This document shows positions 2-14,817 of a stretch of DNA of 14,817 bases, piece by piece. The DNA lies in NCBI GenBank assembly GCA_003661265.1, contig QMVU01000003.1, forward strand, positions 1-14,817. The letters are read 5' to 3'. The position numbers and the translations under genes were made by a program. Under the pieces are notes generated by a model. That model saw nothing but the letters and a program-made list of their open reading frames with translations. It searched no databases and was not told the DNA's origin. Position 1 is the stretch's first letter. Each line of letters starts with the position of its first letter. The DNA is from Thermoproteota archaeon (GTDB taxonomy: Archaea > Korarchaeota > Korarchaeia > Korarchaeales > Korarchaeaceae).

Positions 2-172
2 ATGGCAAAGCCGGCCTTCGTAACCCACGTCCTTCCGGTTTTCAGGGGAGAGGAGGCAACGGACGAGGTAATGGACGGACCAAACTCCATAATATACGAA
101 CAGGCGGAGAACAACCTCTACGCTAAGATGGCAGTTCTCGCTCTTACCATGGCTAAGGAGATACCAATATAG
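2..172 (+). CDS. Ornithine carbamoyltransferase-family protein, C-terminal part (cut by window edge)
   Basis: Frame 2 is open from the window edge to TAG at 170-172, giving the last 56 residues of a larger protein. The segment [15 protein letters not shown] followed by [17 protein letters not shown] matches the conserved C-terminal end of ornithine carbamoyltransferases (RGEEVTDEV...DQAENRLHAQKA), which transfer a carbamoyl group from carbamoyl phosphate to ornithine in arginine synthesis or catabolism. The family signature HCLP reads HVLP here, so the cysteine that lines the ornithine site is replaced. This could mean an altered substrate (a related carbamoyltransferase) or a tolerated variant. 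The ATG at 2-4 is almost certainly internal. It ends one base before the stop codon of the convergent D-aminoacylase pseudogene. Family assignment is firm; substrate is not. Confidence 0.8.
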
Positions 173-173
173 C

Positions 174-1832
174 CTAAACCCCTTCTTTGTTTTTGACCCT
201 TACCAAGGTAATTGAAGAATTAAGCTGTAATATGCCTGAGGACTTTCCCAGCCAGAGGCCAGTTGGTTTACCTCCTTCAACAACAACTTCCTCGCTTACC
301 AAGACGTACTCTATCCCATCTGGGAACTGCATGGGTTCCATAAATGTGGCCCTATCCAACACCCTCTTTGGATCGAAGACGACGATGTCAGCCCAGAATC
401 CCTCTTTAAGCATACCCCTATCCTTTAATCCTATCCCTTGGGCTGGAAACGAAGTCATCTTCCTAATGGCCTTCCTCTAACCTCAAAACGCCCCACTCCC
501 TCACATACCTGCCTAAGACCCTTGGGTAAGTTCCGAAGCTCCTTGGATGTGGGGGAGCCTGCTCTCCTATCAGACGATCTAATGCAGAGCTGTCGGTTGA
601 TATCATGGAAAGCGGATGTTTAATAACTTCTCTTACGTCCTCCTCCCATATTCTCCTGCTATCCTGATTTCGTCCCTGTACTTGAGGATTAAGTCAAAGA
701 GCGTAGTAAGTTCGCCTTTCCTCTAGATCTAGCGAGATCTATTATTGTTAGACCTATCAACTCCCTGTTTTCGCAGGCTAAGATCACATACTCCAAACCA
801 AACGTCTTTATGGGATTAGTCCAACCAGGAATCCCCCTTTCTACGTCCTCCCTGATTTTCCTCCTTACTTCTGGATCCCTAAGTCTCTCTAAGATTCTCT
901 CAGTTCCTCCCTCCCTTACTCAGGGAGGGAGCCTCGAGCTAAGTCTGCTTATCCCGCGTATGCATAGGAATAGACGTCACAGGTTACGTCAATGCCTTTA
1001 CCCCTTGCTTCCTCAATCATCCTGAGCGTATACCTAACTTTTCCCCAGTTAGGCCTTCCGGTAACCTTATGTTGGCTTATCTGAACCGAAACTTCTGCTT
1101 CCTTTCTATCCTTATCGCCTCTTCTACCGCTTCAACTAGCCTGTAGCTCTCGCTCCTCATGTGTGTGGCATAAATGCCCTTGTGCTTTGAGACCACTTTA
1201 CAGAGCTCAGCTCTATTATCTCCTCTGTATCAGTATATTTTCCTGGAGCATATTCTAATCCTGTAGAAAGTCCAAAAGCCCCCTCTTCCATTGACTCCTC
1301 AACAAAGCCTTCATTTCATCCAATTCATCTTTCGTAGGTGGTCTGTCCTCCACGCCCAAAACACAGCTCCTAACCGTGCTATGCCCAACCAGAAAAGCTA
1401 CGTTCACTCTCACACCTTTCTCCTCAAATCTCCTTAAGAGATCTCCATAACTTCGCCAATCCCATGAATAATGCTTCAGAACCTCCTCGTTTAAGGAGGG
1501 AAAATTCTTCTCTTAAGGACTTGTTCAACGACTTCTGGAGTAGTAGGAGCGAGCGACCATCCGCAGTTACCCACTAATTCGGTGGTTATCCCCTGCACAA
1601 CTAGGTTAGTGGCTCTCTGGTTGGCGAAAAGCGCCATGTCAGAGTGAGAGTGTACGTTTATGAAGCCAGGAGCGACCACGAGCCCCGTTGCATCTATCTC
1701 CACATCACCGGATTCCGCTCCTAGATTCCCAATCTCACTATCTTTCCCTCTGAAATCCCCAGATCCGCTCTAAACCAATGGATTTCCGCTTCCATCTACA
1801 ATAAACTCGTTCCTAATTATTATGTCGATAAT
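174..1832 (-). pseudogene. D-aminoacylase / N-acyl-D-amino-acid deacylase, degraded by many frameshifts
   Basis: Translated piecewise, the minus strand gives almost a complete amidohydrolase of about 550 codons, in order: an N-terminal beta segment (IIIRNEFIVDGSGNP, 1780-1826), the metal-binding HSHSD motif (about 1640-1655) with GITTELVGNCGW after it, WDWRSYGDLLRRFEEKG and NVAFLVGHSTVR (about 1365-1465), EEGAFGLSTGLEYAPG (about 1250), ATHMRSESYRLVEAVEEA (about 1130-1180), VQISQHKVTGRPNWGKVRYT (about 1040), DVYSYA, RGIPGWTNPIKTFGLEY (about 800-850), STDSSALDRLIGEQAPPHPR (about 540-600), and the C-terminal FPAQGIGLKDRGMLKEG with ADIVVFDP (about 370-450). Single-base indels break the frame near 1780, 1728, 1500, 1305, 1210, 1100, 956, 695, 640 and 478. 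A TGA near 918-921 replaces an expected Trp codon after LPP. No normal start codon precedes it: a TAG lies in frame at 1833-1835. Intact homologues hydrolyse N-acyl-D-amino acids or related amides. Neighbouring genes are intact, which argues for real decay rather than poor sequence. Confidence 0.88.
907..931. repeat. Perfect 9-bp inverted repeat inside the pseudogene
   Basis: CTCCCTCCC at 907-915 is the exact reverse complement of GGGAGGGAG at 923-931, with a 7-base loop between. It falls where the pseudogene encodes LPP, the TGA codon and the following REGG, so it is made of ordinary codons (Pro-Pro and Gly-rich) and is probably fortuitous. Confidence 0.4.
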
Positions 1833-1880
1833 CTAGCTTAGCTTGAATGGGAAAAGATTAAAGGATCCCGTTTGGCAGTC

Positions 1881-2504
1881 TCACCAATGAACAAGCTTCT
1901 CCACCATCGATCTATAAGTGAAGTACGCTGGATCTTCGGAGAACTTCCTAGTCCCGATGAAGGAGAGGATCAAAATTAAGGAAGAAGTGCCCGTGTAACT
2001 GAGGTCACCCAACAGGTCACCTAGCGTTACCTGGACGATGATCTCAGCTATCACAGCCGTAGAAAGGACTGGCAACCATTTGGATCCTAGAAGAACGAGC
2101 AAAGACGCTCGTCCCGTTGAAGGAAGGAGCAATAAGACATTAAGCGGCAAGACACGATACCTCCTTTCAAGCATCTTTTTAACCAAAAGAGAGGATAGGA
2201 TCAACGAAACCAAATCGAATAGGGTTATCGTCACCCTAATCTTCCTTTCAACCCCGCAGATCTCATAAAGTTCAGCTCTTACAAGACGGATCAGCTCGTA
2301 CCTAATTATCAGGAAGGAAGATGCGAGGAACCCAACCGATGTAAGGACTGTGAGTAGAGAAACTTCCAAGGTAGCTTCCTTACCTATCGATAAGGGGAGG
2401 GAAGCCAGGTGTAGGAGGAGAAAGGCCAAATGAGATTTGTACCTCCATCCCCTCCCTTCTCCTCTTGAGAAGACCTTACCTATTCCTAAGCCGAAGAAGA
2501 CCAT
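1881..2504 (-). CDS. Multi-pass membrane protein, unrecognised, coupled to the PelF-like glycosyltransferase
   Basis: The 207-residue protein has about five hydrophobic segments (near residues 25-43, 48-68, 93-110, 117-140 and 145-190, the last possibly two helices), separated by basic loops such as RYELIRLVRAELYEICGVERKIR. No catalytic motif is visible and I do not recognise the family. The ATG at 2502-2504 lies inside the end of the upstream glycosyltransferase gene, with a 19-base overlap, so the two are almost certainly one transcript and translationally coupled. It may anchor the cytoplasmic glycosyltransferase at the membrane, as the PelD/PelE membrane proteins do for bacterial PelF. 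That role is inference from position only. It ends at TGA 1881-1883, beyond which only the decayed gene follows. Confidence 0.75.
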   Translation of the reverse strand: MVFFGLGIGKVFSRGEGRGWRYKSHLAFLLLHLASLPLSIGKEATLEVSLLTVLTSVGFLASSFLIIRYELIRLVRAELYEICGVERKIRVTITLFDLVSLILSSLLVKKMLERRYRVLPLNVLLLLPSTGRASLLVLLGSKWLPVLSTAVIAEIIVQVTLGDLLGDLSYTGTSSLILILSFIGTRKFSEDPAYFTYRSMVEKLVHW

Positions 2505-3961
2505 TTCTTTTCCCCCACCAAACTGAGATAAAGGTTTCTGTAACTGTTTATCATCTCCTCCAACTGGAAGTTCGATAGTACTCTCTCCCTAGCGTTCTTT
2601 CCAAGTTTTCTCCTTAGTTCAGCGTCTTTTGCAAGTTTTTCTATGGCTAAAGCAATCTCCTTGGGCTCAGGTCTAACTAGAATTCCTGCATCCCCCAATA
2701 CCTCAGGAACTCCCCCTACATCGGTTCCGATTATGGGAAGACCCGTCGCCATTGCTTCTAGGAGGGCAAAGGGACATCCTTCCGACCTGCTAGGAAGGAC
2801 GAATATGTCTGCCTTGCTAAGCGCCTTCTTAACGTCCGTTGTACCTAGAATCTTGAAATACTTGGAGATCCTCAGTTCTCTGATAAGAGAGAGGATTTCT
2901 TCCATGTATTTCCTGTCGGATATGGGCCCAATTACCTCAAAATTCAGCTTCATACCTGAGCTAAGGACTAAGGCCGCCGCCCTTGCAAGCAAGTCTATTC
3001 CCTTAACCTTGTCAACCCTTGATATCGTTACGACTAGGACCTCCTCACATTCCTCACTATGCGCCTTGGCAGCCTCCACAAAATTTTCCTCAAATCGAGA
3101 CCAGGATTGGGACCGAAAATCCTTCTGGCTCCCACTGCTTCCTACTCTTGACCTTTTTCCGTACCTCGAGGCATCTATGCCATTTCTTATCAGGAGAAGC
3201 TTTTCCCTAGGAACACCTAGCCTAATCTGGTTTCTCATTAGCGATTCCGATACAGAGGCTATGACATCTGCGTAGAGATAATTGGTCTTAACCACCGAAT
3301 TCATGACTTTCCTAAGCAATTCCTTTAACCAAACCTTTTCTTCAGCTCTCTCTAGCCAGATATCCAGTTCTCTCAGAAAGGAACCATGCTCAGTTATTAC
3401 TAGGGGGATTCCCCACTTCACCTTTGCTGCGGACCCTACAAGTCCGGCTAGTCCCGCATTTGCGGAATGAATCAGGTCGAAACCCTTGAGTTCACCGCCA
3501 AGCATGATAGATTCAAGAATTGGGTGAAATATGCGTGCAAGTCCGTAAGCGAACTCGATGAAGCCCTCCTTGAGATCCAGCTCCTCATAAACGTTCTTTG
3601 CCATAAACCAAAACTCTCTAGAACTCAAGAAGGACGTCGGATCTGTCTTAATAGTCGAGCTGACAAGTCTCTCCAATCTAATCCCCTCTCCAAGAAATAA
3701 CTCCTTTAGAGAACTCGCTACGTCTCTGAAAGCCATTGGATTACCCTTGGTCCTCCACTTCCTGCTGAATAGGACGTGAACCTTTACCTCGATTCCTTTA
3801 GGGACCTTAAACATGAAATTCGTTTTCTCACGAGTTGTTATGGTCACTACGGTAAATTCAAAGTCCTTCAACCCCTGAACAAGCTCTTTGACCCATGTGG
3901 AGACGCCTCCAATGTCAACAGGAAAACCTCCTTCCTCGACGATGGCGATCTTCGGGGGCAA
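2486..3961 (-). CDS. GT4 family glycosyltransferase, PelF-like
   Basis: A GT-B fold glycosyltransferase of 491 residues, predicted cytoplasmic, transferring sugar from a nucleotide sugar with retention. The N-terminus (VEEGGFPVDIGGVSTWVKEL, about residues 8-27) is the PelF-type glycine-rich acceptor-domain loop. TEHGSFLRE at 190-198 matches the PelF TEHG motif. The donor domain shows LLLIRNGIDASRY (255-267), SRVDKVKG with donor-contacting Arg315 and Lys residues, VIGPISDRKY (343-352), and the EX7E signature SEGCPFALLEAM with Glu394 and Glu402. A polar Ser/Arg/Glu-rich stretch (about 268-306) separates the two domains and is longer than in the second PelF-like protein of this window. Start is TTG at 3959-3961, supported by AAGGTG eight bases upstream. 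It leads a two-gene operon with the 207-residue membrane protein. It could be a second synthase or a branch-adding enzyme; its donor sugar cannot be read from sequence. Confidence 0.9.
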   Translation of the reverse strand: MPPKIAIVEEGGFPVDIGGVSTWVKELVQGLKDFEFTVVTITTREKTNFMFKVPKGIEVKVHVLFSRKWRTKGNPMAFRDVASSLKELFLGEGIRLERLVSSTIKTDPTSFLSSREFWFMAKNVYEELDLKEGFIEFAYGLARIFHPILESIMLGGELKGFDLIHSANAGLAGLVGSAAKVKWGIPLVITEHGSFLRELDIWLERAEEKVWLKELLRKVMNSVVKTNYLYADVIASVSESLMRNQIRLGVPREKLLLIRNGIDASRYGKRSRVGSSGSQKDFRSQSWSRFEENFVEAAKAHSEECEEVLVVTISRVDKVKGIDLLARAAALVLSSGMKLNFEVIGPISDRKYMEEILSLIRELRISKYFKILGTTDVKKALSKADIFVLPSRSEGCPFALLEAMATGLPIIGTDVGGVPEVLGDAGILVRPEPKEIALAIEKLAKDAELRRKLGKNARERVLSNFQLEEMINSYRNLYLSLVGEKKWSSSA

Positions 3962-4029
3962 AAACGCTACACCTTATGAGCAGGTAGAGGGGGGGAGGAC
4001 ATCATACCCACGGTAGGAAGGCTGAACAG

Positions 4030-4050
4030 TTCACTTTTTAATTTTTTAAG
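4030..4050. promoter_or_regulatory. AT-rich divergent promoter region between glycosyltransferase and KaiC-like gene
   Basis: The 103-base gap between the divergent starts (3961 and 4065) contains one strongly AT-rich block, with TTTTTAA and TTTTTTAA on the plus strand. For the plus-strand gene the block centre is about 26 bases before the GTG at 4065, the usual archaeal TATA-to-start distance, which suggests a leaderless mRNA. Read on the minus strand (TTAAAAAATTAAAAA) it would give a leader of about 50 bases that includes the AAGGTG ribosome site of the glycosyltransferase gene. Shared use is inference. Confidence 0.45.
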
Positions 4051-4064
4051 AACCCTAGCTCGTT

Positions 4065-4772
4065 GTGGGGGAAGAACTGGGGCGAAACGATAGGGTGGCA
4101 ACGGGATTCTCCTCCCTAGATGAGGCAATAGGAGGGGGTTTACCTAGAGGATTTAACGTCCTCTTAGTGGGCCCTCCTATCTCCAGCAAGGAGATCTTCT
4201 CTAAGAAGTTCACGTACACTGGGATCCTACAGGGAGATGCCTGCATATTCACCACTACAAATAGGACAGCTGAGGAGCAGGAGAGGGAATTCTCTGAGCT
4301 TAACATGAGCATAGATGAGGCAAAAAGGGATGGGAGGATCGTGTTCATAGATATGTTCTCCAGAACAATCGGACTTGAGACGGAGGAGCTTCCCTATATA
4401 AGGAGAGCTTCTAGCATAATGGATCTCTCAGGATACAACGTCATAGTAAGAGATCTCTTGAAGGAGTTCTGGATGAGACATAAGCCAGTTAGGTTCGTGT
4501 TTGACACGTTGACAACCCTGTTCACGTACAATAAACCTGAGACCGTTTCCAGATTTTTACATGCCCTTTTTGGAAGGCTTAGGGCAAGCCGGAGCAATGG
4601 CCTGTTTCTCTTCGATAAGGAAACCCACCCACAAGAGGTGGAGCATCTCTTAATAACGCTAGTAGATGGGGTACTTGAGATGAAAAAGGAGGGAGGGGGG
4701 GATTACATTAGGTACCTAGGCAGGAGAGGAGTATCCTTTACTACCGACTGGCTGAAGTATCAGATGGATTGA
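4065..4772 (+). CDS. KaiC/RadA-superfamily protein with degenerate Walker A
   Basis: A single KaiC-like domain of 235 residues. The start of the fold is clear: ATGFSSLDEAIGGGLPRG (12-29) is the usual TGxxxLDxxxxGGxPRG lead-in, followed by LLVGPP. The P-loop that should read GxxxxGKT reads GPPISSKE (36-43): Lys42 is kept but the glycine and the Ser/Thr that holds magnesium are lost. The Walker B strand VRFVFDTLT with Asp147 remains. It may bind nucleotide weakly or act as a non-hydrolysing partner of the KaiC-like proteins encoded on the opposite strand. No Shine-Dalgarno precedes the GTG start, in line with a leaderless transcript. Its 3' end overlaps the convergent membrane-protein gene by 13 bases. 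Members of this superfamily in archaea include signalling and regulatory ATPases such as ArlH and GvpD; the exact role here is unknown. Confidence 0.82.
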   Translation: MGEELGRNDRVATGFSSLDEAIGGGLPRGFNVLLVGPPISSKEIFSKKFTYTGILQGDACIFTTTNRTAEEQEREFSELNMSIDEAKRDGRIVFIDMFSRTIGLETEELPYIRRASSIMDLSGYNVIVRDLLKEFWMRHKPVRFVFDTLTTLFTYNKPETVSRFLHALFGRLRASRSNGLFLFDKETHPQEVEHLLITLVDGVLEMKKEGGGDYIRYLGRRGVSFTTDWLKYQMD

Positions 4773-5110
4773 TCCCTCGTCATCTTCGAGCTTCTGGCCT
4801 TTCCGTAAAGAACTTTGAGAAGGAGCATGAGGCTTACCACCAAAATAACGTAGTATATCAGCGTCCCAAAATGTCCTAGACCTCTCATTCCAAGCGAGAC
4901 CAGAAGCTTTGAAAGGAAGGACAACATTCCGCTCAGAGCCAGTAGAATAAAGGCGATTCTAAACGTTCCATAGCTGAGGAATATATAGCTGGTAGCTGCC
5001 CTGAACCTCCTCTCATCGATTGAAACTCTTAATATGAGCAAGAGCTCTAGGAAAACCGCTAACGACAGGATTATCGCAGGTAAGCCTCCTAAGCTGGGAA
5101 GATACACCAT
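4760..5110 (-). CDS. Small three-helix membrane protein, last gene of the KaiC/GTPase/Roadblock operon
   Basis: About 116 residues with three hydrophobic segments (roughly 8-28, 41-66 and 79-99 from the ATG) and a basic, polar C-terminal tail (KARSSKMTRDQ). I do not recognise the family and see no catalytic motif. The frame can be opened at TTG 5125, but ATG at 5108-5110 is preferred: it sits four bases after the Roadblock gene's TGA and has GGTGAG just upstream inside that gene's end, the same arrangement as the Roadblock start. As the only membrane protein in the switch operon it could tether the Roadblock/GTPase complex to the membrane, or be its target; this is inferred from position. It converges on, and overlaps by 13 bases, the KaiC-like gene at 4065-4772. 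Confidence 0.7.
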   Translation of the reverse strand: MVYLPSLGGLPAIILSLAVFLELLLILRVSIDERRFRAATSYIFLSYGTFRIAFILLALSGMLSFLSKLLVSLGMRGLGHFGTLIYYVILVVSLMLLLKVLYGKARSSKMTRDQSI

Positions 5111-5114
5111 TATC

Positions 5115-5498
5115 TCACCTACCAAGCAATTTCCTTATCTTCTCGCTGGCCTTTTCCATCTCAAGGAGTATTAAACCGAGATTCGCCCTAGGATCGGACA
5201 TCGTGACCAAAAGAGCCTTCTTGCCAGCCCCCATCGCTATTATCTTAGCCTCCCTTCCCTCGACTATTACCCTCTCTGCTACCCCTTTCTTTAGCTCCGA
5301 GAAGGCTGTCTCGGCTGCTCCAACCATAGTAGCGGTCATGGCCGCGAATGTCCTTGAGTCTATGTCGCTGGGCATTTCGCAAGCCATAAGAAGCCCGTTT
5401 CTCGAGACAATAGCAGAAGCATAAACCTCTCCAGTGGCATTAAGGTCCATAAGGACCTTCTTCAACATATCCCTGAGGGTAAGCTTCCCCTCCATCAT
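5115..5498 (-). CDS. Roadblock/LC7 (MglB-like) domain protein
   Basis: A protein of about 127 residues covering one Roadblock/LC7 domain and little else. The sequence has the typical pattern: an amphipathic first helix (LRDMLKKVLMDLNAT), a strand with ASAIVSRNGLLMAC, a central helix with DSRTFAAMTATMVGAAETAF, then strands ERVIVEGREAKIIAMGAGKKALLVTMSD and a final helix LGLILLEMEKASEKIRKLL. Roadblock proteins form dimers that bind small GTPases and often act as their GTPase-activating or scaffold partner (MglB with MglA; CvnB with CvnD in actinobacterial conservons). The GTPase is encoded by the gene directly upstream. An in-frame TTG at 5510 exists, but GGAGG at 5503-5507 together with the upstream stop TGA (5500-5502) points to the ATG at 5496-5498, or the next ATG at 5493-5495. 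Confidence 0.9.
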   Translation of the reverse strand: MMEGKLTLRDMLKKVLMDLNATGEVYASAIVSRNGLLMACEMPSDIDSRTFAAMTATMVGAAETAFSELKKGVAERVIVEGREAKIIAMGAGKKALLVTMSDPRANLGLILLEMEKASEKIRKLLGR

Positions 5499-5499
5499 A

Positions 5500-6672
5500 T
5501 CATCCTCCAAAAATCGTATTTAACAAGATTCTCAAGCCTTCTCTAACTCCCTCACCTGTTGTTGCAACGGTTCCGACGACTGGTACCTCCTCGCCAAAGC
5601 CCAGTTTGGCCCTGACCTCTTCAGGGCTTAATGCATTCGGCAGGTCTTGTTTATTTGCAAACACGATGCAGGGAAGTCCATAGGCCCTGGCTTTCCTCAG
5701 CATTTCTATGGCTCTAGGAAAAGTCTCGGGCTTGGTGCTATCCACAACCAGTATTACAGCTATGGCCTCGCCTCCTAGTTGCTCCAGGATTGGATCAAAC
5801 CTCTGTTGCCCCGTGGTACCGAATAGGTCGGCGTAAAATCCCTCGAACTCCACATGTCCGAAGTCCAGGGCAACTGTCGTGGATTCCCTGTCAACGCTCA
5901 CAGCTCTAGTAGATAAGGCATGAACTACAGAGGTTTTCCCGGCGTGAAACGGCCCAGTAACCAGGATCTTCGGGATGTAGATGCGCACTCCTCCAGGTCT
6001 CATGAGTTTGAAGGGAACTCTCTTGCTCTCGACGACCTCCCCTTCAACCTTCCTTACCGTGAATATGTCCCCTATTATCACATTCCTTTCTATGGAGGTT
6101 AACTCTATCATGTTCTCGAAGAAATCCTCAATCCTCATCCTTATTTGGCTCTCATATCCCCAATCAGCAAATACACAGAGGAGCGAGGCGTCATAGAGGG
6201 TTACGAGCCTGCCCCAATCCTCCAGCTTGTCCAGCACTTCCACCCCGCACTGGTCTAGAGCCGTTGAAAGAGAGTCTATCACTAGAAGAGATCCGCTTTC
6301 ATGCTCTTCTAAGGCCCTAGCCAACACCGAAGTTATTTCCTCTGGGTTTGTTGGGTCAGAAACCGCATATCTTCCCTCCCCTGATAGACCCATGAAGGGG
6401 GTGTAGGCGTCGATGAACGAGAGCCTTCCAATTTCTCTGTACTCCCTCATGTCCCAGCCAAACCTTTCAGCGTCCTCCATGATGGTAAAGATTCTCTTGG
6501 TGTTGGTGAAGTATATCACAGAATCCCCTGACTTCAATCTATGGTGGCAGATGTGGTAAGCGAAGAGGGCACCGTTTATGAAGGGAGTGTGGTAGAGGAC
6601 CGTAGTTGATCCGTCCTCTAGTCCGCCTCTTAACATATCATCAAGGACAGGGATGCCTGTTGACTTCCTCAT
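5500..6672 (-). CDS. Fusion of an inactive-looking KaiC-like domain with a small Ras-like GTPase
   Basis: The 390-residue protein has two parts. Residues 1 to about 225 are a KaiC/RadA-like domain: STGIPVLDDMLRGGLEDG (4-21) is the usual lead-in, and LLVIDSLSTAL (129-139) is a Walker B strand, but the P-loop is erased (YHTPFINGAL at 27-36, with neither the glycines nor the lysine). Residues about 230-390 are a complete small GTPase: G1 GPFHAGKTS (240-248), G2 threonines 265-266 in STTVALDFG, G3 DLFGTTGQQRF (282-292), G4 NKQD (340-343), and G5-like TVATTGEG (368-375). The TTVALDFG and FGTTGQQRF wording fits the COG2229/CvnD-like branch related to MglA and SR-beta. It probably acts as a nucleotide-dependent switch with the Roadblock protein encoded next. 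ATG at 6670-6672 is preceded by GGGAG, 15 bases after the KaiC-like gene's stop. I infer that the KaiC part is a docking or oligomerisation domain. Confidence 0.9.
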   Translation of the reverse strand: MRKSTGIPVLDDMLRGGLEDGSTTVLYHTPFINGALFAYHICHHRLKSGDSVIYFTNTKRIFTIMEDAERFGWDMREYREIGRLSFIDAYTPFMGLSGEGRYAVSDPTNPEEITSVLARALEEHESGSLLVIDSLSTALDQCGVEVLDKLEDWGRLVTLYDASLLCVFADWGYESQIRMRIEDFFENMIELTSIERNVIIGDIFTVRKVEGEVVESKRVPFKLMRPGGVRIYIPKILVTGPFHAGKTSVVHALSTRAVSVDRESTTVALDFGHVEFEGFYADLFGTTGQQRFDPILEQLGGEAIAVILVVDSTKPETFPRAIEMLRKARAYGLPCIVFANKQDLPNALSPEEVRAKLGFGEEVPVVGTVATTGEGVREGLRILLNTIFGG

Positions 6673-6687
6673 CTGTGATAAGCTCCC

Positions 6688-7413
6688 TCAGATAGATATA
6701 ACTATTCCTCTCCCGTACTGTATTACGAAGGGGTAAGCGTTCAGACTGTGGTTAACTCCTCTCATCTTCCTAACATACAGTTCCCTAGAGAAAACCGTCC
6801 CCTCCCTTATTAGACGGAGAACGATAACTCCCGAGGCCAAGAACTCCTCAACTCCATATCTGCTTAGCGTGTTTGTTCCTGTCGGGATCTCAGATGTAGC
6901 TATTGTCGTGACGTTAAGCTCCTCCAAGGAATCGAAGAGCTCTTTAAGGTACATCCTTATGACGTTTTGAGTCCTAAGACCTCCTTCCTCCTCCTTTAGG
7001 ACAAGAGGAGCTATGGGGTCTATCGCAAGCCTTTTCGCGTTCAACTGCTTAATGTGGAGCTTTAGCTCCTCGGCTATGCGCTTGGCACTTATCTCCTTGA
7101 TGTCAGAGAAGAAGGGGGATATCTCAAGTATCATGAGCTTATTTTGATCTATTAGCTCCTCCAAGTCCCAGCCTATTGAGGCCGCGTCCTCTATTATCCT
7201 CTCGGGCTTCTCGTCTATAGTGACGAAGATGCCGCTCTCTCCGAAGTTTCGGGCACCCATGTACAGGAATTGAAGGGCAAAAGTTGTCTTGCACGTCCCG
7301 GTCTCGCCAGCCACAAGGTAAATTCTCCCTCTAGGTAGACCTCCCTCTATGAGCTCGTCGAAGCCCTCTATTCCAGTTCTAACCCTCTCAACTAGGCGGC
7401 CCTTTCCGATCAT
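6688..7413 (-). CDS. KaiC-like ATPase (RadA superfamily), first gene of the switch operon
   Basis: A single-domain KaiC-like ATPase of 241 residues. RTGIEGFDELIEGGLPRG (12-29) leads into Walker A GETGTCKT (36-43), complete except that Cys41 stands where glycine is usual. FVTIDEKPERI carries the acidic pair in the position of KaiC's catalytic glutamates. KRLAIDPIAPL is the Walker B strand, and the C-terminus has YVRKMRGVNHSLNAYPFVI, the family's closing KMRGxxHS...PF motif. It is therefore the best candidate for an active ATPase among the three KaiC-like proteins here. Such proteins form hexamers and often work by phosphorylation or nucleotide-dependent partner binding; the partner here is plausibly the KaiC-GTPase fusion 15 bases downstream. 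ATG at 7411-7413 has no clear ribosome site. A TATA-like sequence about 30 bases upstream (7439-7450) suggests a nearly leaderless mRNA. Confidence 0.9.
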   Translation of the reverse strand: MIGKGRLVERVRTGIEGFDELIEGGLPRGRIYLVAGETGTCKTTFALQFLYMGARNFGESGIFVTIDEKPERIIEDAASIGWDLEELIDQNKLMILEISPFFSDIKEISAKRIAEELKLHIKQLNAKRLAIDPIAPLVLKEEEGGLRTQNVIRMYLKELFDSLEELNVTTIATSEIPTGTNTLSRYGVEEFLASGVIVLRLIREGTVFSRELYVRKMRGVNHSLNAYPFVIQYGRGIVISI

Positions 7414-7438
7414 CTTAGTTCAAAATCCGGCTTGGTAG

Positions 7439-7462
7439 AATTAATAAGTATTCTTTATTTTT
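7439..7462. promoter_or_regulatory. Divergent TATA-like elements between the switch operon and the Pel-like operon
   Basis: The 86-base gap between starts 7413 (minus) and 7500 (plus) is very AT-rich. On the minus strand TACTTATTAATT (7450-7439) is centred about 31 bases from the ATG of the KaiC-like gene. On the plus strand TTTATTTTT (7454-7462) would place a transcript start near 7484, just before the GGAGG at 7488-7492. The close back-to-back placement suggests joint control of both operons. The boxes were judged by eye only. Confidence 0.45.
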
Positions 7463-7487
7463 CTAATTAGTAGCTATTATCATTAAA

Positions 7488-7492
7488 GGAGG
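7488..7492 (+). promoter_or_regulatory. Strong Shine-Dalgarno fixing the GTG start of the TPR-like gene
   Basis: AAAGGAGG ends seven bases before GTG at 7500-7502. No ATG in this frame lies near, so the ribosome site decides the start. It is the strongest ribosome site at the head of a transcript in this window and contrasts with the apparently leaderless divergent gene. Confidence 0.65.
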
Positions 7493-7499
7493 AATCGAA

Positions 7500-7937
7500 G
7501 TGGAGGCCGAGGAGAGCCACTGGTCAATGGGAACTAAACTTGAGAAGGAGGAAAAGTATCAGGAGGCGCTTGAGCACTATCTTAAAGAGGCAGAGATTCA
7601 AAAACAAAGGAATAACATCGCAATGGCAGCTTTATCCCTCCTATCTGCCGCAAAATGTGCGTTAAAGGCTGGAGATAACAAGGCCGCGATGACCCTATTT
7701 GACTTAGCCGGGGATTCTTACGTGAAGTACGCAGAGTCCACCTCCTCCGTATCCCCAAGGTCCTCTATTTGGGGATATAAGATGGCATCGAAGTGTTACA
7801 TGTGGGCGAACAAGTTTGAGAAAGCGGAGAAGGCCTTGGAAACGGCAAATTCTATGGAGGAGAAGCTAGAACCATCCGAAGATCTGGGCGCTGGTGTGCC
7901 TTTGTTTAGGCCATATAGGAAGAAAGGTGGGAAATAA
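7500..7937 (+). CDS. Small TPR/SNAP-like helical repeat protein, first gene of the Pel-like operon
   Basis: A soluble, all-helical protein of 145 residues with no signal peptide. Two or three TPR-like units are visible: residues about 7-40 (WSMGTKLEKEEKYQEALEHY, then LKEAEI), about 41-76 (AALSLLSAAKCALKAGDNKAAMTLFDLAG), and about 92-125 (WGYKMASKCYMWANKFEKAEKALETA). Each has the small-residue spacing (G/A at position 8, A at 20) expected of TPR helices. The short basic tail ends RPYRKKGGK. TPR proteins are protein-binding scaffolds. It stands directly before pelF, 23 bases apart, so it may play the part of PelE, the TPR-bearing partner in bacterial Pel complexes, but without PelE's membrane helices. 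That equivalence is inference from position and fold. It could equally link the KaiC/GTPase switch to the synthase. Confidence 0.8.
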   Translation: MEAEESHWSMGTKLEKEEKYQEALEHYLKEAEIQKQRNNIAMAALSLLSAAKCALKAGDNKAAMTLFDLAGDSYVKYAESTSSVSPRSSIWGYKMASKCYMWANKFEKAEKALETANSMEEKLEPSEDLGAGVPLFRPYRKKGGK

Positions 7938-7960
7938 CTGGAGGGATCCCCCTGCTAAGG

Positions 7961-9424
7961 GTGGTCATGACATCAGAGGGCACTTATCCCTACTTCAGGG
8001 GAGGAGTGAGCACTTGGACTCATAATCTCATCAAGAAGCTTCCAGACATAGAATTCTACATAGTTTCAATAGTTCCCAGTCCCTTCTTCAGGATCTCATA
8101 TGACCTGCCAAGGAACGTGAGGGGCTTAGTGACGATCCCATTATGGGGAGAGGAACAGCCCGGAGAGCACTTCAGCCCCTCATGCCTCTCGGTTCTTAGA
8201 AGGGTCATTAGGACAGGAACGAGCGAAGTGGAAGAGGAGTTCATTCCAAGCTTCAAGGACTTCCTAGAAGAGGTTCTCTCCGGGGGAAAGAATCCTAGAA
8301 GAATGGGAGAAGCACTTACAGCCATGCGAAAGTTCTTCGAAGATCATGAGTACAAGAAGACCTTTAAGAGCGAAGCTCTCTGGAAGCTATACATCTCAAA
8401 ACTCGGAGAGGACAAGCTTTACTCCAACATGGAGGTTTCTGAACTAATAGATCTCGCGAGGGTCCTACAGCACTTCCTTAGAGTTCTCATATTTCCGTTT
8501 CCTGAAGGAGACGTGTACCACTCCTCAGCCGCTGCCCTTTGTGGAGTTCCAGCAATAGTATCAAAGGTGAAAGAGGACATCCCTTACCTCCTGACGGAAC
8601 ACGGCTTGTACTTCAGAGAGAGAATACTGGACACAGTTAGGTTAGTTAAGAGCCTTCCAGCCAAGATATTCTGGCTAAATCTGTTTCGAGCAATTGTCTT
8701 GGCCAATTACAACTATGCTGACAAGATTTCCCCCGTCTGTAGCTTCAACGTAAACTGGGAGAGGGAGTTCGGCATCAAGGAGGGGAAAATCGAGGTGATA
8801 TACAACGGGATAGATGTGAACAGGTTCAGGCCCTTGAACGTTAGGAGAGACGAGGACGTAAAGCGCATAATCCTCATGGCAAGAGTCGATAAGCTTAAGG
8901 GAATAATCGATATGGTTGAGGCCTTCAGCTACGTGAAGGAGGAGGTTAGGAATGCCGTCTGTCAAGTGTTTGGTCCCATAGTGGACAAGGAATATTACGC
9001 AGCCTGCATGAGGAAGGTCAAAGAGCTTGGGTTAGAGGACTCCTTCTTATTCATGGGCCCGACCAATCAGCCTGAAGTGGAGTACAACAGAGCCGATGTT
9101 GTCGCTCTTCCAAGTATATCTGAGGGGTTCCCCTATGCTGTGGTTGAGGCGATGGCCTGTGGTCGTCTCGTTGTAGCTACAGACGTGGGAGGGGTGAGGG
9201 AGGCGCTAGAGGGTTGCGGAATAGTCGTCCCACCTAGACAGCCGAGAGAACTAGGTAAGGCGATTTCGGAAGCCCTTCTAGATGAGGAGATGAGGAAAGA
9301 GCTGGGTATGAAGGCTAGGGAGAAAGCTGTGAGGCTGTACTCTGAGGAGAGATTCTTGGCCGACTATCTGCGCTCGTATGTCGAGCTTCTATCTGAGAAG
9401 AAGATCGGAGGGATGTCGAAATGA
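7961..9424 (+). CDS. pelF: Pel polysaccharide glycosyltransferase PelF (GT4)
   Basis: The 487-residue protein matches PelF along its length. The N-terminus SEGTYPYFRGGVSTWTHNLI (5-24) is the family's hallmark; bacterial PelF has nearly the same EGTYPYVRGGVSSW motif. LLTEHGLYFRERI (210-222) is the TEHG motif. VIYNGIDVNRF (279-289), ARVDKLKG (307-314) with donor-contacting Arg308 and Lys residues, FGPIVDKEYY (337-346), and EX7E SEGFPYAVVEAM (Glu388, Glu396) form the donor domain. Bacterial PelF is the cytosolic synthase that uses UDP-GlcNAc/UDP-GalNAc type donors for the Pel polymer; whether this archaeal protein keeps that donor is unknown. Start GTG at 7961 has GGAGGG rather far upstream (7940-7945). 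An ATG at 7967 is a possible alternative, and the frame is open further upstream. Its stop overlaps the next start (ATGA at 9421-9424), so translation with pelG is coupled. Confidence 0.93.
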   Translation: MVMTSEGTYPYFRGGVSTWTHNLIKKLPDIEFYIVSIVPSPFFRISYDLPRNVRGLVTIPLWGEEQPGEHFSPSCLSVLRRVIRTGTSEVEEEFIPSFKDFLEEVLSGGKNPRRMGEALTAMRKFFEDHEYKKTFKSEALWKLYISKLGEDKLYSNMEVSELIDLARVLQHFLRVLIFPFPEGDVYHSSAAALCGVPAIVSKVKEDIPYLLTEHGLYFRERILDTVRLVKSLPAKIFWLNLFRAIVLANYNYADKISPVCSFNVNWEREFGIKEGKIEVIYNGIDVNRFRPLNVRRDEDVKRIILMARVDKLKGIIDMVEAFSYVKEEVRNAVCQVFGPIVDKEYYAACMRKVKELGLEDSFLFMGPTNQPEVEYNRADVVALPSISEGFPYAVVEAMACGRLVVATDVGGVREALEGCGIVVPPRQPRELGKAISEALLDEEMRKELGMKAREKAVRLYSEERFLADYLRSYVELLSEKKIGGMSK

Positions 9425-10965
9425 CAATAGAAATATTATCCGAGCTAGATAGCTTGGCAATGGCTGTCCTGGAGATAGAAGAGGACATCAAGGACTACAT
9501 GCAGGTCGCAGCCATACTGGAATCCCTCGGGATCACGAGGGAGATAGCTAGGAGCTACGGGTTTGAAGACGTCTTCTCCCTCTCCAAGGCTGTAATGGAG
9601 TTGATAGACTACTACAAATCCAGGCAAGAGACGGTTAGTGAGGAAAAGAGGTCACTTACTGAAAAGCTTAAGGAAGGCGTCGTTCTCTTTCTCTTAGGGC
9701 TACTCTCAGGCTCCCCTTGGCTTTTATCCACGATATCCTTCTCTCTAACAGGGGTATCTCTTTATTCCATTGTCAACGCGGACATAAAGGTAGCTACGGT
9801 CATAGGCCTTGCTCTCATAGCTAGTCTCCTCGCTACCTCAGGCATACAGTCTGTCTTCATGCGGAAGGTTCTTTTCTACACGTATCAACTTGCTTATGGC
9901 GTTGCGCTTAGGTTCTTGACTCTCTATTATCTGATTGGAACTTCTACCGTCATATTTTCCGGAATCTTATTTTACCTCCTGCTTTCCCCGGTCTTTCCTC
10001 CGAACCTAACCTCCCTTGGGTTGATTTACTTCTTAGCCCTGTCCATGCTCTGGTTAGCAACGGCCCCTCTTTACGCACTTAAGAAGTACACTGTCCTCTT
10101 CTTAGTTTTCGTTATGGCACTTTTCGTGGTTAACGTTGCCCTCTACGAGAGCTCATTGGATTTCGTAAGGGCTCACATCTACGGGATTTTCTTCGGGATT
10201 TTAGCTAGCATGATCTACCTTTTCGTCTATATTTATGTCAGGTTCACTTTGATAAGGGCTGTGAGTGAGGAGACTGTTGTTAGGTTACCAAGCCTCTCTC
10301 TGACGCTATTGTTGGGAACCCCCTACTTCATCGCATCCGTTTTGTACTTCCTGCTCATCGTGGCCGATCAACTTGTAGTTTGGACGAGGGTAGGAAGTCC
10401 CCTTTTGATGGACTTAAACTACGAAACAGGAAAGAACTTGGCCCTTCTCATACTTCCACCGCTCTTCGGCCTCGTTCACTACTTCTTAATCAAGTTGTAT
10501 AAGCTCATTGAGGAAGGGGGTAGGTCTAGGATCAGGGATCGAATAGAATACTGCAGAACTGTCGTTTCTTTCTATAAGAGGGCTATTTTCTCGGTGATCA
10601 TAGCCGGTACTTTAATTCTGCTCCTGATATACTTCCTCTCATTAAAAGGAAAGGTAGTTTGGAAAGTTTCTGAGGAGTCCCTCCTAGTTTTAAGGGCGGC
10701 GGGAATTGGGAATATCCTCCTTGCTGTTGTGCTGATAAACTCCCTCATATCATTTTACCTCTATAGGCCAAAACTCATGCTCTACTCCCTGCTTCTGGGC
10801 TTAATTCTCAACTTGGCCCTTAGTTTCTTGATCTCCCAGAGGTACGGGATATATTACGCCTCGTTAAGCTATCTGCTTGGGTGCTTAGCCTCTGGGGTTG
10901 TCTCTTCACTTCAAATAATCAGAAGTTTGAGGAGAATAGATTATTATTACTACACGGCGTTTTAG
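9421..10965 (+). CDS. pelG: PelG-like polysaccharide transporter (MOP superfamily) with extra N-terminal domain
   Basis: The 514-residue protein has about 12 membrane helices beginning near residue 85 (roughly 85-118, 122-142, 152-190, 198-220, 222-242, 250-275, 290-320, 338-360, 388-408, 422-447, 450-471 and 478-500). It matches PelG at several points: SGSPWLLS (96-103) like the PelG SGPWLLT motif before helix 1, ADQLVVWT (315-322) like the D-x-x-V-F-W region, and the C-terminal RRIDYYYYTAF, like the YHTF end of PelG. Bacterial PelG is the flippase-like inner-membrane component that moves the Pel chain outward. Residues 1-84 are a cytosolic helical extension (VAAILESLGI...ARSYGFEDVFSLSKAVMELI) that I do not recall from bacterial PelG. 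The start ATG overlaps the PelF stop, with GGAGGG (9407-9412) eight bases upstream. Co-translation with PelF is strong support for the pairing. Confidence 0.85.
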   Translation: MTIEILSELDSLAMAVLEIEEDIKDYMQVAAILESLGITREIARSYGFEDVFSLSKAVMELIDYYKSRQETVSEEKRSLTEKLKEGVVLFLLGLLSGSPWLLSTISFSLTGVSLYSIVNADIKVATVIGLALIASLLATSGIQSVFMRKVLFYTYQLAYGVALRFLTLYYLIGTSTVIFSGILFYLLLSPVFPPNLTSLGLIYFLALSMLWLATAPLYALKKYTVLFLVFVMALFVVNVALYESSLDFVRAHIYGIFFGILASMIYLFVYIYVRFTLIRAVSEETVVRLPSLSLTLLLGTPYFIASVLYFLLIVADQLVVWTRVGSPLLMDLNYETGKNLALLILPPLFGLVHYFLIKLYKLIEEGGRSRIRDRIEYCRTVVSFYKRAIFSVIIAGTLILLLIYFLSLKGKVVWKVSEESLLVLRAAGIGNILLAVVLINSLISFYLYRPKLMLYSLLLGLILNLALSFLISQRYGIYYASLSYLLGCLASGVVSSLQIIRSLRRIDYYYYTAF

Positions 10966-10974
10966 GGTGATATC

Positions 10975-11928
10975 TTGGTATTTGGAAGCGTTTTGGTTTC
11001 CGGAGGGGCTGGTTTTATAGGTAGTCACATAGTTGAGCTTCTGTTAAGTAGGAATGAAGTAGAGAGGGTTTTGGTCCTAGATAACTTCTTTACCGGAAAG
11101 CTTGACAACTTAAAGCCCTTTCTCAAAGACCAAAGGCTGAAAATTGTCAGGGGGGACATAAGGAACAGGGATCTCGTGAAGAAACTCATAAAAGAAGTGG
11201 ATTTCGTTTTTCATCAAGCTGCTATAGTTTCCGTCCCGCTTTCCATAAAGGAACCAGAGTTAACCAACGATGTTAACGTTAACGGGACGATTAACTTACT
11301 TGAGGCAGCTTTAGACTCCGATATCGAGAGGTTCGTCTACGCCTCTTCCTGTGCTATTTACGGAAACCCGGACTCCCTCCCAATTAGGGAGGAGAGCAGG
11401 ATAGATCCTCTCTCTCCCTATGCTGCATCCAAGTTAGCGGCTGAATCATATTGTAGGGCCTTTTATCAAAGCTACGGCCTCAAGACCGTTTGTCTGAGGT
11501 ACTTCAACGTTTACGGACCTAGGCAGGCTGGCGGAGCGTATAGCGGAGTGATCTCCATCGTCATGAGACAGATCCTTGAAGGGAAGTCCCTCACGATAAG
11601 GGGAGACGGAAGTCAGACCAGGGATTTTGTCTTCGTTAAGGATGTAGCGGAGGCAAACTTGTTAGCCTCTGAAAGAGATGAGGCAGTGGGAAAGGTCTTT
11701 AATATAGGAACTGGCAAGGCGATAACCATTAAGGAGCTTGCTGAGATTATATCCAGCATAACAGGAAGAAACACAGGCATTAAGTACGTTCCTATGCTGA
11801 AAGGAGAGGTTCTACACAGCGTAGCCGACATCACACTAGCTAGGAGGGTGTTAGGTTATAACCCTAAGTTCACGCTTGAAGAAGGGCTGAGAAGAACGTT
11901 CAAGTGGCTTGCGGCAGATGAGGAGTGA
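10975..11928 (+). CDS. NAD-dependent UDP-sugar 4-epimerase (extended SDR, GalE/PelX-like)
   Basis: A complete extended short-chain dehydrogenase of 317 residues, cytosolic. The NAD-binding motif GGAGFIGSH spans 10-18, Asp36 ends beta-2 (VLVLDNFFTG), the catalytic Ser lies in YASSCAIYGNP (Ser124/125), and Tyr149 and Lys153 form YAASK. LRYFNVYGPRQ (174-184) and DGSQTRDFVFVKDVA (211-225) are typical of UDP-glucose and UDP-GlcNAc 4-epimerases. As the last gene of the pelF-pelG operon (nine-base gap) it probably supplies the donor sugar. Bacterial Pel is rich in GalNAc, and PelX, a UDP-GlcNAc 4-epimerase, is found in some Pel loci, so UDP-GlcNAc to UDP-GalNAc is a fair guess; UDP-Glc to UDP-Gal cannot be excluded. 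The TTG start at 10975 follows GGTGAT and places the NAD motif at the normal distance from the N-terminus. Confidence 0.9.
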   Translation: MVFGSVLVSGGAGFIGSHIVELLLSRNEVERVLVLDNFFTGKLDNLKPFLKDQRLKIVRGDIRNRDLVKKLIKEVDFVFHQAAIVSVPLSIKEPELTNDVNVNGTINLLEAALDSDIERFVYASSCAIYGNPDSLPIREESRIDPLSPYAASKLAAESYCRAFYQSYGLKTVCLRYFNVYGPRQAGGAYSGVISIVMRQILEGKSLTIRGDGSQTRDFVFVKDVAEANLLASERDEAVGKVFNIGTGKAITIKELAEIISSITGRNTGIKYVPMLKGEVLHSVADITLARRVLGYNPKFTLEEGLRRTFKWLAADEE

Positions 11929-12074
11929 AGAGTTAAGAGGTCATGTTTTTCTTAGAGATGTCGGTGTCGAGAAAATATAAAACTCCATGAGAAGACAAGT
12001 TTCGGACAAGCTGTCTTTCATTTTGTAGGAATCAGTTCTTCTCTTTTACCTAATTGTAACTCAATGATGTGTCA

Positions 12075-12084
12075 TTATTTAAAT
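12075..12084 (+). promoter_or_regulatory. TATA box of the HMG-CoA reductase gene
   Basis: TTATTTAAAT is an excellent archaeal TATA box. Its centre is about 28 bases before the ATG at 12108, which would give a leaderless or nearly leaderless mRNA. A second, weaker TATA-like stretch, AAAATATAAAA (11972-11982), lies about 95 bases further upstream in the 140-base intergenic gap. The first box lies inside the longer reading frame that starts at GTG 12069, an argument against that start. Confidence 0.6.
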
Positions 12085-12107
12085 GGGAGATCGAGGCAAA
12101 AAGAGGT

Positions 12108-13382
12108 ATGAAATCCTCCAGGGTTCCTGGATTCTACAAACTACCTATAGAGGAAAGGGTTAAGATAGTGGAGGAGTTTGCCGATCTAACAGACGAAGAA
12201 ACTGAACTCCTCCTAAAAGTGGGAAATCTGAAGCTAGATATAGCAGATCGCATGATAGAGAACGTTATAGGGACATGGCCCCTGCCCTTGGGAATTGCAG
12301 TCAACTTCAAGATAAACGGGAAGGATTACATGATTCCAATGGCGATAGAAGAGCCTTCTGTGGTCGCTGCTGCAAGTAATGCTGCGAAGATGGCCCGTCC
12401 AGGAGGAGGGTTCTTCGCTGAGGCCACAGAACCCATCATGATAGGTCAGGTTCAGCTCGTTGGTGTCAAGGATCCAGAGGAGGCGAAGAGAGTTATACTA
12501 GAAAATAAGGATCAGATACTGGAGATCGCAAACGAACAGGACCCGATTTTAGTTAAACTAGGTGGTGGGGCTAAGGACCTTGAGGTAAGGATTCTAGAGA
12601 CAGAGGTGGGTCCTATGGTTATAACACACCTCCTCGTAGACGTCAGAGATGCCATGGGCGCAAATGCCGTCAACACGATGGCGGAAGCGGTTGCTCCTAC
12701 AATAGAGAGGCTTACTGGAGGGAGAGTGTATTTGAGGATAATTTCGAACCTGGCTGATAGGAGAATTGCAAGGGCAAGAGCTGTATTCAAGAAGGAGGCA
12801 ATAGGAGGAGAGGAAGTAGTTGACGGAATAATAGCAGCTTATGCCTTTGCTGCAAACGATCCCTACAGAGCCTGCACACACAATAAGGGGATAATGAACG
12901 GGGTCATTGCTTTAGCCAGAGCTACCGGTCAAGACACTAGAGCTCTTGAAGCTGGCGCACACGCTTACGCTGCACGCAGCGGAAGGTACTCTCCCCTATC
13001 TAAGTGGTGGAAGAACGAGGATGGAGATCTTGAGGGCTACTTGGAGATGCCGATAGCAGTTGGCACGGTCGGGGGAATAACTAGGGTCCACCCACTGGCA
13101 AAGCTATGTCTAAAGATTCTCGGAGTGAAATCAGCAAGAGAGCTAGCTCAGGTAATGGTGTCTGTAGGCTTAGCTCAGAACTTCGCTGCCCTAAGGGCGC
13201 TTGCAACAGAGGGCATACAGGCAGGCCACATGAAGCTTCATGCAAGGAACGTGGCAATGGCAGCTGGCGCTAAACCAGAAGAGGTAGACCTGGTAGTTGA
13301 GAGGCTGATAAGAGAGAAAAAGATAAGATTAGATAGAGCAAAAGAGATTTTGGAGGAGATAAGGGGCTCATCTGGCTCATGA
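12108..13382 (+). CDS. Hydroxymethylglutaryl-CoA reductase, class II (bacterial type)
   Basis: HMG-CoA reductase makes mevalonate from HMG-CoA with NAD(P)H, the committed step toward archaeal isoprenoid lipids. Counting from ATG 12108 gives 424 residues, close to the 428 of Pseudomonas mevalonii HMGR. Class II motifs are all present: [19 protein letters not shown] with the catalytic Glu (82 in this numbering), DAMGAN (181-186), THNKGIMNG with the catalytic Lys260, GQDTRA with Asp276, and [14 protein letters not shown] with the catalytic His374. There is no membrane anchor, so it is cytosolic. The frame could open at GTG 12069, but [12 protein letters not shown] from ATG 12108 lines up with the MSLDSRLPAF start of the Pseudomonas enzyme, and a TATA box sits at 12075-12084. 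Most archaea use class I HMGR, so a class II enzyme points to an old transfer. Direction (synthesis or degradation) and cofactor cannot be read from sequence. Confidence 0.92.
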
Positions 13383-13443
13383 CAAGGAATTGTAGGGCAT
13401 GAACCTGCTTTCTGAATTGATAAGCTGTTTTTATGAGAGAACC

Positions 13444-14781: not shown

Positions 14782-14810
14782 GTAACACCTTTCTTCAAAG
14801 AAAGTAACAC
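14782..14810 (-). promoter_or_regulatory. Leader inverted repeat framed by direct repeats before the radical SAM gene
   Basis: CTTTCTTCAAAGAAAG at 14789-14804 is a perfect 7-bp inverted repeat with a 2-base centre. It is framed by two copies of GTAACAC (14782-14788 and 14804-14810). Read in the gene's direction the 3' arm GAAAG runs into the AAAGGTG ribosome site just before the ATG. It could be an operator for a dimeric regulator, or an RNA hairpin that hides the ribosome site. Both are inference. Confidence 0.45.
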
Positions 14811-14817
14811 TAAAAAA

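Follow-up and report, generated by a model that had tools for sequence, protein, structure and literature searches.

Bacterial Pel operons are arranged as pelABCDEFG in Pseudomonas and as pelDEADAFG in Bacillus and Streptococcus, and the canonical system makes a GalNAc-type polymer with partial deacetylation. The PelDEFG proteins of Pseudomonas are reported to form an inner-membrane complex that is turned on by binding of cyclic di-GMP (c-di-GMP) to PelD (PMC12345266), and PelE is described as a predicted protein interaction module (PMC12345266, PMC7112168). Pel synthesis of Streptococcus reportedly needs another form of control, since no diguanylate cyclase is encoded (PMC12345266). On the archaeal side, KaiC domains serving as signalling parts, including inactivated copies (iKaiC), are already described (PMC5847659), and Roadblock and KaiC genes have been reported near archaeal type IV pili loci (PMC4858521). 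As for small GTPases, MglA is reported to lack the G3 aspartate (PMC4316618), and a study on Asgard MK-D1 reportedly places its GTPase genes generally outside operons with Roadblock genes (PMC10933270). No paper on an archaeal Pel locus was found by title, most of the subscription literature lying outside the search; likewise, no literature description was found of a KaiC-Arf-like GTPase fusion with a Roadblock partner, and absence from print is not claimed, because most subscription papers, as well as mBio 2017 e01959-17, were outside the search. Here, we describe a locus where Pel-type glycan genes and such switch genes meet, in a contig of 14,817 bases from a korarchaeal member of the Thermoproteota (QMVU01000003.1, hereafter the window). 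The window is a complete contig (C3) of an assembly (G000) comprising 294 contigs and estimated to be 71% complete.

From left to right, the window carries the 3′ end of a carbamoyltransferase-like gene, a broken amidohydrolase gene, and genes for the membrane protein MP207, the glycosyltransferase PelF1, the KaiC-like protein KaiC235, the small membrane protein MP121 and a Roadblock protein, followed by those for a KaiC-GTPase fusion, the KaiC-like protein KaiC241, a TPR protein, PelF2, PelG, an epimerase-family protein, HMG-CoA reductase and a radical-SAM protein. The genes and the island that most of them form are real, their linkage is specific to one lineage, and the switch is widespread among archaea with a KaiC scaffold devoid of the ATP site. 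That the island encodes a PelF/PelG-type surface glycan synthase-exporter coupled to this widespread GTPase switch is a tentative reading, to which we give slightly less than even weight.

Linkage of the Pel-type genes with the switch genes

Among 394 genomes, the fusion was found in 37 (two matches partial) and PelG in three, and both occur together only in the genome of the window itself. A PelG profile run on 48 fusion genomes, derived from the 80 loci of a contig scan (see below), was positive in four: AUK039, Hecatellales B26_G17, Bathyarchaeota B24-2, and Bathyarchaeota B71_G16. PelG adjoins the TPR and switch genes in the first three. In B71_G16 (G409), the contig L168 starts with presumed last codons of the fusion (by reading), the Roadblock gene, two small membrane protein genes and a reversed KaiC241 gene, and continues with TPR-PelF2-PelG-epimerase, a second PelF-type gene and a membrane protein gene; the fusion of this genome is on a separate contig, L057, which belongs to another subclade of the 18-row fusion clade described below. 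PelG is thus located beside switch genes in all five genomes with both, namely, the window and four of the 48 searched. The naive chance of such adjacency within 15 kb in five of five is about 1e-8, a figure that ignores shared ancestry and is a guide only, because the genomes are related.

The head-to-head order of KaiC241 and TPR-PelF2 repeats in L042, L044, L046, L047, and L168, with 40–64% identity for the three proteins, and a TPR relative adjoins PelF2 in the same five loci and in L166 (31%). The genome B24_G1 also shows this order, running to the contig end, and PelG was not found elsewhere in its 0.7 Mb assembly. The PelG profile was made from four switch-linked PelGs and is accordingly biased toward such loci; it still found G248 and, weakly and in part, G060, both PelG-bearing genomes outside the fusion-positive set. 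In G248, histidine kinase- and response regulator-like genes, assigned by reading, are present near the TPR-PelF2-epimerase-PelG run (L166 6385–7607 and 8899–13626). The initial annotation had named independent occurrence of the two operons in related genomes as a finding that would refute its proposal, and this applies in part: over archaea at large, the two are apart, as the counts over 394 genomes tell, and within one clade they are linked. Association with Pel is therefore no general property of the switch; the linkage is specific to one lineage.

The KaiC-GTPase-Roadblock switch

The small GTPase (Arf, 58.6 bits) has no gene of its own and forms the C-terminal half of a KaiC-family protein encoded at 5500–6672 on the minus strand, in which a KaiC domain without a P-loop (residues 4–233) is followed by an Arf-like GTPase (235–387). 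Motifs were compared over 94 fusion rows, which include three duplicate records and represent 91 distinct loci: 80 from the contig scan, where loci were picked by the G1 or TT motif, and 14 earlier loci selected otherwise, three of the scan loci being records already present in the set of 14. The GTPase motifs are kept (G1 in 94/94, G3 in 94/94, and G4 in 86/94 rows), and the G3 residue is D in 88 rows, N in three and E in three. The Walker A motif GK[ST] of the KaiC domain is found at none of the 91 loci and its catalytic glutamate at two; the window has neither. Because Walker A is missing throughout, the fused KaiC domain is unlikely to sense ATP, and the proposed input of ATP through KaiC is weak, 89 of the 91 loci lacking the catalytic glutamate as well. 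In a structural comparison of the fusion, the 50 matches listed are KaiC or RecA-type entries, a set that barely probes the GTPase half.

KaiC241, encoded next to the fusion (6688–7413, minus strand), belongs to the KaiC-like ATPase family (PF06745, 230.6 bits). Its homologues carry Walker A GK[ST] in 21 of 21 cases and the catalytic acidic pair in 19 of 21, and KaiC241 may be the ATP-using part of the switch. The window copy keeps the acidic pair, and its P-loop (7285–7308) reads GETGTCKT, with a glycine changed to cysteine (codon TGC) either truly or by an assembly error. KaiC235 (4065–4772, plus strand; PF06745, 86.7 bits) is a degenerate KaiC-like protein: Walker A occurs in 26 of 80 homologues and the catalytic acidic pair in none of 81, and the window copy, which reads GPPISSKE at the place of the P-loop, has neither. 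The Roadblock/LC7 protein (5115–5510, minus strand) matches PF03259 with 50.4 bits (cut-off 23), and its best PDB sequences are 9jue, 7f8m, and 7yh1. The open reading frame (ORF) of MP121 (4760–5125, minus strand), a small membrane protein with three hydropathy stretches, overlaps that of Roadblock. A small membrane protein encoded 3′ of Roadblock was considered as a general part of the switch and rejected, since besides the window and L168 it was found at only three of 83 loci with enough sequence (four cut off).

Pel-type glycan genes and c-di-GMP control

The gene families named in the initial annotation were recovered where it had placed them: PelF1, PelF2, and PelG pass curated cut-offs, and the KaiC, Roadblock, and epimerase families are matched. 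PelF-type glycosyltransferases were called by NF038011 with its curated cut-off of 100 bits, together with the DUF3492 and GT4 domains. Both GT4 proteins pass, PelF1 (2486–3961, minus strand) with 157.6 bits and DUF3492 at 136 bits (E 2.8e-39), and PelF2 (7961–9424, plus strand) with 152.5 bits and DUF3492 at E 7.3e-45. PelG (9421–10965, plus strand) matches PF16933 with 46.6 bits (cut-off 29) and has an MOP-type fold preceded by an N-terminal, helical region some 80 residues long. The idea that this region is an archaeal docking domain is weakened, because a distant protein, P0004, also has it. The plus-strand run further contains the TPR/SNAP-like protein (7500–7937), whose TPR and SNAP matches are all under curated cut-offs and which has no predicted transmembrane stretch, and the NAD-dependent epimerase/dehydratase-family protein (10975–11928; PF01370, 233.5 bits). 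MP207 (1881–2504, minus strand), whose ORF overlaps that of PelF1, is a multi-pass membrane protein with four hydropathy stretches and no family match; a BLAST comparison (E up to 1) with the membrane proteins encoded last in the Pel operons of L047 and L168 gave no match.

PelD, GGDEF, GAF, and PilZ had been noted as missing from view, and this is borne out: none is matched in Pfam among the ten proteins of 1881–10965, nor among the NCBIfam matches listed for these proteins (for the PelF proteins, the best 25 of 50 and 25 of 37). GGDEF (PF00990) was found in none of ten archaeal genomes, most of them incomplete or of completeness not given, with 8 of 14 controls positive; PelD (PF16963) gave no match in the ten, a negative without weight, as all 14 controls were silent too. 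PelA, PelB, and PelC have no match in the window, and neither a PelA-type deacetylase nor an oligosaccharyltransferase is matched among the window proteins scanned.

Locus layout and genomic island

The genes are closely packed in units. KaiC241, the fusion, Roadblock, and MP121 follow one another on one strand with spacings of +15, −11, and −11 bases, and TPR, PelF2, PelG, and the epimerase gene with +23, −4, and +9 bases, as judged by ORF starts. As the initial annotation had it, the units are back to back with shared gaps: two divergent gaps lie between them, one of 103 bases from PelF1 to KaiC235 (3962–4064) and one of 86 bases from KaiC241 to TPR (7414–7499), and the head-to-head order at the latter is kept in six further loci.

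An island of about 11.9 kb (172–12106), between the carbamoyltransferase-like gene and the HMG-CoA reductase gene, was delimited by blastn against a genome of the same genus, G001 (L122). Matches to G001 cover window positions 2–171 (86%) and 12107–14817 (89% DNA identity), and in G001 the two matching stretches are only 131 bases apart, the 11.9 kb between them being extra DNA in G000. The carbamoyltransferase-like gene, named by reading of the sequence only, has its counterpart in the ORF 16335–17378 of L122. A broken amidohydrolase gene lies at the left island edge (about 174–1703, minus strand), with Amidohydro_3 in the separate ORFs 174–458 and 1491–1703 in a three-frame view. Mis-binning or a chimera was rejected as an explanation, the HMG-CoA reductase and the radical-SAM protein being 93% and 97% identical to those of G001 next to the DNA identity given above. 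In the cluster listings, proteins identical to the PelG and to the fusion each belong to a cluster whose longest contig is given as 57,305 bases, more than the length of the window.

Neither PelG (E up to 1e-10) nor the fusion (E up to 1e-40) was found in 28 other genomes of the phylum, several of which are 96–99% complete. In a quick, midpoint-rooted tree of 64 fusions, the window and a close relative, P0011 (87%), fall inside a clade of 18 rows with a support of 99 in the SH-like approximate likelihood ratio test (SH-aLRT). Named members of this clade mostly carry Bathyarchaeota labels, with Hecatellales and two AUK isolates labelled Thaumarchaeota also present. The absence from G001 and the 28 genomes, together with the placement of the fusion in a Bathyarchaeota-labelled clade, fits a block that moved as a unit. 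One horizontal gain of the whole block is the simplest reading, loss in the other genomes being the alternative.

Distribution and other neighbours of the switch

The contig scan gave at least 567 stretches encoding fusion relatives, possibly including unfused GTPases, and the best 80 were kept, all of which align to the fusion over at least 300 residues. These loci carry labels of Bathyarchaeota, Hecatellales, Altiarchaeota, Methanosarcinales including ANME-2, Archaeoglobaceae, Hydrothermarchaeota, a Woesearchaeote, and others. Roadblock is present at 76 of the 80 and a KaiC235-like gene at 65; in the earlier set of 14 loci, the corresponding numbers are 13 and 11. No fusion relative was found in viral contigs with a single-protein query. 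No neighbour family other than KaiC and Roadblock exceeds 25 of the 91 loci, and the one that reaches this number is confined to one lineage group. Type IV pili were considered as a common partner of the switch, since pilin-like genes, by reading of sequences, occur near the fusion in several lineages, and set aside, as neighbour clustering gave no partner common across lineages.

Some loci have neighbours of other kinds. In the Methanosarcinales loci (L053–L120), the switch genes are located upstream of two small-gene families, found at 25 and 20 loci, which we take to resemble a YhbY-type RNA-binding protein and ribosomal protein S19e, respectively. Short pilin-like proteins with a class III signal, recognized by reading of the sequences, are encoded near the fusion in L031–L036 and L030 and may represent another output. 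In Bathyarchaeota B26-2 (L048 6493–7674), two proteins weakly similar to the window Roadblock, with a start that looks like a helix-turn-helix by reading, are encoded near the switch. A Nanoarchaeia-labelled genome in one contig (L030 18326–19543; L098 is the same record) carries the fusion close to the end of the contig, and the 20 kb read there contain no match to Roadblock.

Proposed mechanism and alternative explanations

In the proposed mechanism, PelF2 would build the glycan chain, PelG would move it through the membrane, the epimerase would provide a sugar nucleotide, and PelF1 with MP207 would contribute a second activity. The Arf-like GTPase would be carried by a KaiC fold that no longer binds ATP and acts as a scaffold, and the GTP/GDP state of the GTPase would be set by the Roadblock protein. 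The TPR protein, the product of the first Pel-operon gene placed head-to-head with KaiC241, would be the likely adaptor between switch and synthase, taking the place of bacterial PelE and PelD. Regulation of secretion by the switch is plausible and inferred, the physical contacts and the direction of control being presumed. In its most extended form, the proposal describes a c-di-GMP-free, GTP-gated archaeal polysaccharide synthase: Roadblock-set Arf-like GTPases on an ATP-blind KaiC scaffold would be read by a PelE-like TPR adaptor that gates PelF and PelG, and the switch would be general and pluggable, with Pel as one co-travelling plug-in. We regard this extended form as doubtful.

Several observations weigh against a coupling of the switch to the Pel unit. 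PelF2 was found at four of the 80 fusion loci, within the flanks available and with many contigs short. In G248, the TPR-PelF2-epimerase-PelG run has no fusion match, an arrangement showing that the TPR gene accompanies the Pel unit as well as KaiC241; since this genome is outside the fusion genomes, the Pel unit can run without the fusion. AUK008 is colinear with AUK039 at 83% DNA identity and is without a stretch of 2.9 kb that contains PelF2 and the greater part of PelG. Of the PelG 3′ end, about 66 bases that translate to a recognisable tail remain at the break (L043 4750–4816 against L044 5778–5843, with a 5-base overlap), and because of this tail the difference is taken as a deletion, after which the TPR, KaiC241, fusion, Roadblock, and KaiC235 ORFs are all retained. 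Hecatellales B76_G16 (L045) has the switch, with no TPR gene in the locus and no PelG in the genome; its KaiC241 and KaiC235 frames are each split in two (L045 9239–9969 and 12206–12772), by decay or assembly error. These two genomes indicate that the switch has work besides Pel. The clade genomes are, in addition, incomplete assemblies. Under one alternative, the switch regulates archaeal cells in general through its GTPase and has a cell-wide task of its own, and the Pel-type unit is merely a neighbour in one clade, transferred along with it. This would suit the switch ORFs kept in AUK008, the occurrence of PelG in only one of the 37 fusion genomes and the narrow range of the commonest further neighbour; it sits badly with the linkage in five of five genomes, in the same head-to-head order and at 40–64% identity, and with the inclusion in that linkage of G409, whose fusion (L057) is in a different subclade. 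We consider it rather unlikely.

A further alternative concerns the product, here presumed to be Pel-like. The glycan genes may make an S-layer, pilus or lipid-linked glycan through a Wzx-like flippase, with the switch tuning surface glycosylation. The MOP-type fold of PelG makes a role as a Wzx-like glycan flippase a live rival, as the PelG model is similar to the WzxE and MurJ flippases and also to MATE transporters; the missing PelA-type deacetylase match and the Roadblock and KaiC genes reported near archaeal type IV pili loci (PMC4858521) point the same way. On the other hand, both transferases pass the PelF cut-off, PelG passes its Pfam cut-off with no Wzx-type Pfam match, and no oligosaccharyltransferase is matched among the proteins scanned; we consider this alternative improbable. 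It is also conceivable that KaiC241 and the TPR protein work locally as a pair, controlling transcription from the divergent promoter or acting as chaperones for it, and that the GTPase is uninvolved in the glycan. Their pairing is the most constant link, found at seven loci, among them the window and that of AUK008, from which PelF2 and PelG are gone. The close packing of KaiC241, the fusion, Roadblock, and MP121 on a single strand of the window speaks against this explanation, which we consider very improbable. The proposal of the initial annotation, a nucleotide switch controlling secretion of a surface polysaccharide, stands in part: the linkage in one clade, the island and the lack of GGDEF in ten genomes speak for it, and the missing general tie, the weak case for ATP sensing, and AUK008 speak against it.

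If the coupling is true, control by a small GTPase is added to the known ways of regulating Pel-type synthesis, here in organisms where GGDEF was not found, and a common archaeal GTPase-Roadblock module (91 distinct loci with full-length fusion examined) gains its first testable output. Pairs of small GTPase and Roadblock genes in many archaea also bear on how GTPase-Roadblock control arose in eukaryotes. Should the Pel link fall away, the fusion of a KaiC domain devoid of its ATP site at all loci examined to a GTPase with intact motifs is still a clear and testable puzzle.

Comparison with known systems

The window resembles bacterial Pel loci in having PelF-type transferases with DUF3492, a PelG-type transporter and an epimerase nearby, and its TPR protein may be compared with the interaction module reported for PelE. 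It differs from them in the lack of PelD and PelA/B/C matches, in the lack of GGDEF in the genomes searched, in the TPR protein without predicted transmembrane stretches, and in the two PelF-type genes. Streptococcus, as reported, provides a precedent for Pel without c-di-GMP.

The switch has several known relatives. As in MglA/MglB of Myxococcus, a small GTPase gene adjoins a Roadblock gene; unlike MglA, the window-type GTPase keeps the G3 aspartate (88/94 rows) and is fused to a KaiC domain, and the window Roadblock scores 16.2 bits against the cut-off of 200 for the MglB family NF052242. Actinobacterial conservons (Cvn) also combine Roadblock and small GTPase genes, and the Roadblock profile matches CvnB5 (E 6e-13); in the window, however, no histidine kinase (CvnA) is matched among the proteins scanned, and KaiC partners are present instead. 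The inactivated KaiC domain of the fusion recalls what is reported of archaeal KaiC-family signalling, from which the window departs by the fusion of this domain to an Arf-like GTPase with a Roadblock partner. Finally, the window shares archaeal GTPase and Roadblock families with Asgard archaea, and it differs from MK-D1, as reported, in that its GTPase and Roadblock genes share one packed gene run.

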